Below, one piece after another: positions 33,252-40,002 of a stretch of DNA of 45,917 nucleotides. How positions within the stretch are numbered: the stretch's first letter is position 1; each line of letters begins with the position of its first letter. The stretch spans positions 1 to 45,917 of IMG/VR virus record IMGVR_UViG_3300030687_000029. One strand, written 5' to 3'. The notes under the pieces are model-generated. The model saw only the letters and a list, made by a program, of their open reading frames with translations, was not told the DNA's origin and did not search any database. The position numbers and the translations under genes were made by a program. The stretch comes from a virus.

Positions 33252-33692
33252 TTACGAGATGCTGGCTTCGCTCTGTACGCGCCGGAAGGTCGGTACAGCG
33301 TTCGGACGGGCGAGGACGGCGTACTTGAAGTTGTACGCAATGGATGCCCCAACAACGCCGGCCGGATCAGACGAACTGGGTTCCCAGTTGCGGGTGATGA
33401 GGCGGAAGTTGTTCTCGTTCGGCACAGCGGTCGCGCCCAGGGATACGGAGAAGATGGCGTTCATGCCGACCACGTAGGTCGCATAGCCAGTCTTACCGGT
33501 CGAGGGATAGTTCGCGTAGGTCGGAACAGTCGTGGTTTCGATGTAGCGGACGCCGGACAGTTCGATTACGCGATAGCCTTGAACACCGGCCTTCAGTTCG
33601 GATACGCCGCTCTGTACATGCTTGAGCAGATCGATCACGCCGCCAGCGGTGTTGTCGTTGAGCAGGTCGTATGAAACGAAGGGATGGATAAT
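33252..33692 (-). CDS. Major capsid protein, N4-gp56 family, exon 2
   Basis: 146 codons, reading IIHPFVSYDLLNDNTAGG onward. The segments GVRYIETTTVPTYANYP and YATYVVGMNAIFSVSLG are typical of the C-terminal half of N4-gp56-type capsid proteins. With exon 1 (34305-34844) it gives 326 aa, the usual family length. A start at 33638 inside it would give only the C-terminal 128 aa and is not a separate gene. Joining at GGT|ATT keeps the frame and restores a continuous FYGIIHPF segment. Confidence 0.85.
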   Translation of the reverse strand: MIHPFVSYDLLNDNTAGGVIDLLKHVQSGVSELKAGVQGYRVIELSGVRYIETTTVPTYANYPSTGKTGYATYVVGMNAIFSVSLGATAVPNENNFRLITRNWEPSSSDPAGVVGASIAYNFKYAVLARPNAVPTFRRVQSEASIS

Positions 33693-34304
33693 TGTTTGTG
33701 TTTAGGATATCTCAGTCACCTGAGTATCGCTCTCATAGTCGCCTATGAGACCAGACTCTCTCTTCTCTGATTGTGAGTCAGAGTTTGACGTATTAGTCGT
33801 TACGGTAATTGGACCTTTACGATTGAGTTCGCGCGACTGGAGATAAAGAATCTCGCGTGTTGCGTTGTCTTTCGTATAATGCAGCTCTAGATATAGAAGG
33901 GCTAACTTTGCTTGCTCTGCCTTGAGTATCATGTAGGGCAGGACACCAAGCAAAAGTTGTTTGCGATTCTTCGCTCCGGTCGGACGCCAAGCCATTGATG
34001 GTTTGTGTCGCGGATCGCGCGAAGGTCGTGTATAATACTGCCCGCCAAAGTTCTTAATGAGAAAATCCATCAGGCGTTTATCAGTATTGACGACGGTCAA
34101 CTCGACTGCGTATGTCTGAGCGGTATCAGACCGGTCGGGTTTATTGTGTTTGTTAATCGCAATGGTGCCTTCACCATCAATAATTGCGGCCAGATACGAC
34201 CAATGAGCTTTATTATTTGTCACAATCTTACCTCGGTATTGTCTGAGTGTATCAGAGTTTCACCGATTTAGTCAAATTTTACTACGGCATTATGCTGCTA
34301 GTTT
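33693..34304 (-). ncRNA. Group I self-splicing intron in the capsid gene
   Basis: 612 nt. P1: exon CTACGGT (34305-34311) pairs with GCCGTAG (34282-34288), with the U-G pair at the 5' splice site. P10: ATAAT (34289-34293) pairs with the exon-2 start ATTAT (33688-33692), directly adjacent to the P1 guide. P3: TTTGAC (34271-34276)/GTCAAA (33784-33789). P7: GACTA (33794-33798)/AGTC (33754-33757). P8: 33766-33770/33778-33782. P9: 33731-33750 with a GCGA loop. P9.1: 33711-33724 with a GUGA loop. The P4-P6 segment resembles the phage T4 td core. The intron end inferred from P10 is A, not the usual G. Confidence 0.85.
33702..34223 (-). CDS. LAGLIDADG homing endonuclease inside the group I intron
   Basis: 173 aa, GTG start with GAGG 7-8 nt upstream. 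YLAAIIDGEGTI near residues 10-21 is a LAGLIDADG motif; only one is seen, so it likely acts as a homodimer like I-CreI. The remainder fits the family fold (KRLMDFLIKNFGGQYYTRPS). Its last ~35 codons (from about 33805) overlap the ribozyme's P7-P3-P8-P9 region, so protein and RNA share sequence. It would cut intron-less capsid genes and drive intron spread; this is standard for the family. Confidence 0.85.
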   Translation of the reverse strand: MTNNKAHWSYLAAIIDGEGTIAINKHNKPDRSDTAQTYAVELTVVNTDKRLMDFLIKNFGGQYYTRPSRDPRHKPSMAWRPTGAKNRKQLLLGVLPYMILKAEQAKLALLYLELHYTKDNATREILYLQSRELNRKGPITVTTNTSNSDSQSEKRESGLIGDYESDTQVTEIS

Positions 34305-34844
34305 ACCGTAGAACATGCCGTCAGACTTCGGCTTCGCGTTCTGACCGCGGAGGCTCATTACTGCCTGACGCGCGATGGACGCGGTGAAAAATTCGTTGTC
34401 TGCCAGGGCGATGTTCACGTTGCCTGCCACTGCGGCTTCGAAGGCCGAAGAGGTCAGGGAGTTCACCGTGAGAGCGGCGCGATAACCCATTTCGCCAGCG
34501 GAGTTCTCAACAATCGGGTCGATGGCAGTCTCGATCAGAAGATCAGAGAAAGACATGTAATCGAAGTATTGATTGACGCTGGTTTTGTTCGTTGCGGTCG
34601 TGGGCGCGATTCCGGTGCCGGGCTGACCTTCAGACCCAGGCGTGGTGTTTGCGCCGAGAACCTGATATCCAAACATTTGGATCGTCTTGCCACTGCGCTC
34701 AGGTAGGACACGTCTCTCGGTCGCAGCCTGGAAGGGCAGATTAGCCTTCAGATTTTCGACGGCAACTTTGTCGTACCAAATTGTCGCTAGATGAGTCAGT
34801 GAAGAAGTGGTGGATACTACTGAAGCTGGGCTCAAAGAAGCCAT
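34305..34844 (-). CDS. Major capsid protein, N4-gp56 family, exon 1
   Basis: 180 codons, beginning MASLSPASVVSTTSSLTHLA, with WYDKVAVENLKANLPF and RVLPERSGKTIQMFGYQ, both typical of the N-terminal half of N4-gp56 capsid proteins. Without splicing it continues four codons (KLAA) into the intron and stops, giving a truncated 184-aa protein. The start has a ribosome site GAGGTGAAGCAAAATG. See exon 2 at 33252-33692. Confidence 0.85.
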
Positions 34845-39926: not shown

Positions 39927-40002
39927 TGGCTGGCTCTCTTGGATTCGAACCAAGAACGACGCGGTTAACAGCCGCGCACTCTGCCGTTTGAGCTAAGAGC
40001 CA
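39927..40002 (-). tRNA. tRNA-Asn (GTT), CCA encoded
   Basis: 76 nt on the minus strand: acceptor TGGCTCT/AGAGCCA, D-arm, anticodon loop CTGTTAA (anticodon GTT), TTCGAATC T-loop, discriminator G and an encoded CCA end. All arms close. Phages often use encoded-CCA tRNAs to supply a host codon. Confidence 0.93.

Follow-up and report, generated by a model that had tools for sequence, protein, structure and literature searches.

Can a group I intron be removed from an essential gene if it has no terminal guanosine, and what would mark its 3' splice site instead? A final G is found in almost every group I intron and is treated as a universal 3' mark. The question arises in the window analysed here, a 45,917-nucleotide stretch of viral DNA (IMG/VR record IMGVR_UViG_3300030687_000029), in which an N4-gp56 major capsid gene on the minus strand consists of exon 1 (34844-34305), a 612-nt insert (34304-33693) and exon 2 (33692-33252). 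We consider it quite probable that the insert is a mobile group I intron whose A-ending 3' splice site is set by the P1-P10 duplex, and that it belongs to a family in which the terminal G was lost repeatedly (features in Table 1).

The capsid gene and its insert

The sequence-only reading had proposed that an N4-gp56 capsid gene is split and that exon 2 resumes the same family, and protein models and intronless homologues bear this out. The joined 326-aa capsid scores 69.9 bits against TIGR04387 (N4-gp56), above the curated cut-off of 60; exon 1 alone reaches 59.5 bits, below that cut-off, and exon 2 alone gave no score in the TIGR04387 search. PHROG_1357 follows the same pattern, with 78.9 bits for the joined protein versus 48.6 bits. 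Intronless relatives of the capsid are found in IMG/VR (L002, with 86% amino acid identity, L003-L007 and L012) and are collinear with the joined exons; the DNA of L002, which has no insert and is 78% identical, joins gap-free at 34305|33692, across GGT|ATT. The exact 34305|33692 junction, spliced or empty, was not found in one scan of viral contigs. As had been noticed before, exon 1 runs into a stop four codons inside the intron: its ORF (34844-34290) reads AAA CTA GCA GCA and then TAA. The unspliced product is a truncated capsid of 184 aa, and no start codon stands at the 5' start of exon 2. We infer that splicing would govern capsid expression.

The insert has the group I core (P3, P4-P6, P7, P8 and the conserved R/S segments) and the P1 U.G pair, and the terminal G is absent. 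All the helices traced by hand in the sequence-only reading are present, namely P1 with its U-G pair, the adjacent P10, P3, P7, P8, P9 with a GCGA loop and P9.1 with a GUGA loop, and so are P4, P5 and P6 (GGUAA/UUACC). The Rfam comparison proposed in that reading gave a divided answer: RF00028 (Intron_gpI), whose core helices are the same as those of the window, does match with 26.2 bits (E 2e-4 in 1 kb), but this lies below the gathering score of 50, and at the gathering score no intron match was found in the window or in the 12 sibling loci tested. A covariance model (R1) made from the 3' domains of 30 sibling introns, with the window left out, finds 33811-33693 at 109.6 bits (E 9.9e-25), the next best match having 8.6 bits. 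Compensatory changes occur in 16 of the 23 pairs in the alignment of these 3' domains, and a paired P3, built from many differing sets of base pairs, is present in 52 of 53 family introns. By its sequence features, then, the insert is what had been claimed, a group I intron, and it is a member of a phage capsid-intron family.

Table 1. Coordinates of the capsid exons, the intron and its parts in the window
Feature	Position	Strand	Basis and remarks
Capsid exon 1	34305..34844	minus	180 codons, 3' end GGT|; ORF, PHROG_1357 and TIGR04387 matches, gap-free against uninterrupted L002
P1 exon strand CUACGGU	34305..34311	minus	read from sequence; pairs with 34288-34282, U.G at splice site
Group I intron, 612 nt, last nt A33693	33693..34304	minus	empty-site homologues, P10, Rfam sub-threshold match, model R1
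P10 intron strand AUAAU	34289..34293	minus	adjoins guide sequence; pairs with 33692-33688
P1 internal guide sequence GCCGUAG	34282..34288	minus	partner of CUACGGU
P3 5' strand UUUGAC	34271..34276	minus	pairs with 33789-33784
P4-P5-P4' (UCGGUGAAACUCUGAUACACUCAGACAAUACCGA)	34233..34266	minus	pattern common to at least 119 viral stretches
P6 5' strand GGUAA	34228..34232	minus	read from sequence; pairs with UUACC 33808-33804, encloses endonuclease gene
LAGLIDADG homing endonuclease gene	33702..34223	minus	single-motif, 173 aa, GTG start; runs through P7-P9.1 to TAA in intron tail
P7 5' strand ACGACU	33795..33800	minus	guanosine-site G-C pair kept; model R1 alignment
P3 3' strand GUCAAA	33784..33789	minus	family P3 pairing, model R1
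P8 hairpin, CUCUGA/UCAGAG	33765..33783	minus	sibling alignment, model R1, fold
P7 3' strand AGUCU	33753..33757	minus	sibling alignment, model R1
P9 hairpin, GCGA loop	33731..33750	minus	compensatory changes in family; fold
P9.1 hairpin, GUGA loop	33706..33728	minus	one bulged A; sibling alignment, fold
Intron tail CUAAACACAAACA	33693..33705	minus	G-free, final base A; sequence; family tail consensus CCTAAACA(C)A-N-N
P10 3' exon strand AUUAU	33688..33692	minus	sole 5-bp adjacent match in 33640-33760
Capsid exon 2	33252..33692	minus	146 codons and stop, 5' start ATT ATC CAT CCC; collinear with uninterrupted homologues

The reading frame, the empty site and P10 together make A33693 the final base of the intron, so that the 3' splice site 33693|33692 and its terminal A, as first read, are upheld. 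Position 33692 is the only one in 33640-33760 that allows a 5-bp P10 adjacent to P1, and A ends the intron at each of the in-frame alternatives (33693, 33696, 33699 and 33702). Two further details of the sequence-only reading are seen in the sequence: the last 18 nt (33710-33693) contain no G, and a splice after G33711 would read ATA TCC TAA, with the stop in frame. A mis-called base at 33693, for which a second look at the 3' end had been advised, is ruled out because other assemblies carry the same sequence. Four other IMG/VR contigs with the region show no differences; L008, L009 and L011 match the window at every base of the gene, L011 differing from it by one SNP, elsewhere, in 7.5 kb, and L010 is identical over its partial overlap, which does not include the 3' end of the intron.

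Terminal bases across the intron family

At least 119 viral stretches contain the P4-P5-P6 pattern, and 98 contain the P7 pattern AACGACTAATA...AGAGTCTG. We read 78 distinct introns, the window included (L048, L053 and L136-L227 are among the loci), and capsid-like sequence lies near 72 of them; intron invasion in these phages has a hot spot in the capsid genes. The window shares the features of the family: the R/S core, a P9 loop of the GNGA type, a GUGA loop in P9.1, the CCTAAACA tail and insertion in a capsid gene. BLASTN against named phages gave no match for the whole intron or for its 3' domain. The literature searched describes neither this capsid-intron family nor its hot spots in capsid genes nor a repeated loss of the terminal G, and to that extent all three are new.

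Sibling splice sites were placed from P1, frame and homologues. The survey used 80 capsid homologues, mostly uninterrupted; collinearity fixes the length of each intron, and the P1 U.G pair fixes both ends. The ends of L058, L171, L194, L161, L211_1162, L224, L222, L146 and L218_3536 were set by hand from the conserved protein, and L139, L147, L157, L188, L206 (ranked G) and L211_2039 stand outside the count. Among the 53 introns whose 3' ends are fixed by homologues or conserved protein, the last base is G in 35, A in 17 and C in one, which makes 18 of 53 non-G, window included. The terminal A of the window is thus not a lone oddity in these alignments, about a third of the family being without a terminal G. 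At the capsid site VIH|P (the bar marks the intron) all eight introns end in A. The GV|IHP site holds one G-ending intron and six A-ending ones; the ends of the six are uncertain by one nucleotide, so that they could be C instead of A but in no case G. One A-ending and two G-ending introns are found at QY|EMF, and likewise at the window's own site G|IIHP, where the window has A and L211 and L224 have G; the GEY|ADY group is G-ending throughout. In 12 of the non-G introns the last 12 nt are free of G. Several A-ending siblings align gap-free with intronless DNA homologues (L154 with L276 at 96%, L219 with L053 at 92%, L205 with L171 at 85%).

On the endonuclease tree the non-G state requires at least four switches on well-supported branches, and seven on the best tree, and the AU test rejects a single non-G clade (p 2e-6). 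On these phylogenies the terminal G has been lost repeatedly, several times independently, in the capsid-intron family. A clade of the window with L211 and L224 is not rejected (p 0.60), and the intron of the window may therefore descend from a G-ending intron at the same site. L048/L222, L154/L187 and L151/L212 are sister pairs with unlike terminal bases; judged from the survey positions, the insertion points of the closest such sisters are often separated by 5-7 nt of capsid gene, a hint that loss of the G may go along with slight changes of site.

Proposed splicing without a terminal guanosine

The known 3' determinants in the second step of splicing are the terminal G, P9.0 and P10 (PMC6155759, PMC10020454). 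An adjacent P10 of at least 3 bp is found in 17 of 18 non-G introns versus 11 of 35 G-ending ones (Fisher p 9e-6), the null rate in mismatched pairs of guide and exon being 6.5%; without the GEY|ADY group the counts are 17 of 18 versus 11 of 20 (p 0.009). Once relatedness is considered, four independent contrasts are left, of which two to three run as expected and practically none in the opposite direction, and this is not significant. The association comes partly from shared ancestry and shared sites. The pattern suggests that P10 may make up for the missing terminal G, which we hold as a supported hypothesis and not as a result. Where J7/9 contains GG, in the window, in L213 and in one G-ending intron, a C is always the penultimate base, a pattern consistent with a possible P9.0. 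The core and the guanosine site are alike in G-ending and A-ending introns (partly through the choice of the search pattern), so the first step should be ordinary.

From the fold, the junction, the terminal A, the family and the repeated loss, all of them sequence-based, we infer splicing and its rate, compensation by P10, and homing. The precursor RNA would fold, and exogenous GTP bound in P7 would cut after U34305 at the U.G pair of P1; the freed exon 1 would then attack the bond after A33693 and join exon 2, giving the 326-aa N4-gp56 capsid. The 3' splice site would be fixed by the continuous 12-bp P1-P10 duplex on the guide sequence and not by a terminal G, presumably helped by a weak P9.0 between C33694 and the G after P7. 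The LAGLIDADG protein encoded in the P6 loop would cut empty capsid alleles and so spread the intron. The unchanged G-binding site in P7 counts against this explanation, because a terminal A should bind poorly there. More tentatively, and as a possibility that we would not yet call probable, the second step may be independent of the terminal guanosine in the whole family: if a strong P10, formed on the guide sequence, picks the 3' splice site, introns shifted within the capsid gene could repeatedly drop the G and stay active and mobile.

The terminal G is needed for efficient second-step splicing in model introns, and L211 and L224 keep it at the same capsid site as the window, so the intron might instead be a natural splice mutant, weak or dead, whose first step works while exon ligation is slow or fails, with capsid output lowered or the locus decaying. 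We regard this as improbable. The capsid is essential, both of its exons are intact and collinear, and the allele is common to several assemblies. Unlike in decaying elements, the A is fixed at one site (8 of 8) and has come up again in four or more lineages whose endonuclease genes are intact. Furthermore, the terminal-A intron ND5-717 splices precisely in vivo (PMC6545197). Another reading takes the general rule that group I introns end in G at its word and moves the 3' splice site to G33711 or to a G in exon 2. This is very unlikely, as G33711 would give the in-frame stop and poor P10 pairing and lies inside P9.1, the next downstream G would delete the conserved IIHPF residues and shift the frame, and the homologues have no residue extra or missing. 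That there is no intron at all, and that a free-standing homing endonuclease gene has split the capsid in two parts, has in its favor the endonuclease gene and the missing Rfam match at the gathering score, but is scarcely credible given the complete group I core with its compensatory changes across siblings (E 1e-24), the lack of a start codon at the start of exon 2, and family introns that have no endonuclease gene (L136, 254 nt; L213, 212 nt).

An A-ending intron that is spliced would have company among known systems. The terminal G (omega G) is nearly universal without being strictly defining, and introns that lack it but are spliced count as group I introns all the same. The Cbu.L1917 intron of Coxiella burnetii, a bacterial group I intron in a 23S rRNA gene, reportedly ends in A and splices slowly; it is a single case, whereas the window represents a family in phage capsid genes. 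Self-splicing of Cbu.L1917 is documented (PMC4990558). In the hexacoral mitochondrial ND5-717 group I intron the last nucleotide is A and the exons are ligated precisely in vivo (PMC8146996, PMC6545197). Like the window intron it lies in a protein gene and has A in place of the conserved terminal G; however, it is mitochondrial and obligatory and carries OxPhos genes in P8, whereas the window family sits in phage capsid genes with a LAGLIDADG gene in P6, and in the latter the terminal A arose several times within one family. The major capsid gene of LittleE (Cluster J mycobacteriophages) is likewise split by an intron with a LAGLIDADG-like ORF, which is efficiently spliced in infection (PMC3706429), but that intron ends in G, has its ORF on the opposite strand and belongs to another capsid and phage group. 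In the window family the G has been lost at least four times, at one capsid site altogether, with close G-ending sisters; the three sister pairs are natural matched pairs for the choice of a 3' splice site without G and for P10 as its substitute.

The endonuclease and further observations on the family

The intron ORF, placed in the P6 loop, carries the LAGLIDADG motif YLAAIIDGEG. Its Pfam LAGLIDADG_1 match (E 0.005) is below the cut-off and that of the sibling L151 ORF is above it; the ORF is 39-47% identical to sibling intron ORFs and matches I-MsoI at E 3e-4, and the LAGLIDADG gene reported in the sequence-only reading is confirmed. I-MsoI is the nearest solved relative, at low similarity; it is an rRNA-intron enzyme, and so its target site differs. 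No match to the endonuclease was found in a search of bacterial genomes. PHROG_5046, labelled 'HNH endonuclease', matches the LAGLIDADG protein of 33702-34223 at E 8e-20, and this label looks wrong. In the window and many siblings the ORF crosses P7-P9.1 and stops near the TAA of the tail CCTAAACA, which in the window (33702-33704) lies about 12 nt before the intron end. The conservation of this tail may serve stop codon and ribozyme alike.

Almost every LAGLIDADG group I intron of the family interrupts an N4-gp56-type capsid gene, about a dozen sites being in use, and several contigs have two family introns each (L140, L162, L207, L211, L214 and L218). The L213 intron appears to end in C. The GEW-site siblings L139, L147, L157 and L188 seem to have no U.G pair at the 5' splice site; either A would be the last base of their exon 1 or P1 would be bulged. 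Eleven bacterial genome contigs from varied phyla (L307-L317) contain the R/S core pattern as well. The nearest named relative of the sibling capsids is that of Tunturiibacter phage Tunturi_3 (L318 / PP885686; 97.6 kb, Finnish soil, acidobacterial host), which is uninterrupted and shares 80% identity with the joined capsid of the sibling L155; the sibling phages plausibly have acidobacterial hosts. The window also contains a tRNA-Asn (GTT) gene at 39927-40002, beside the terminase gene.
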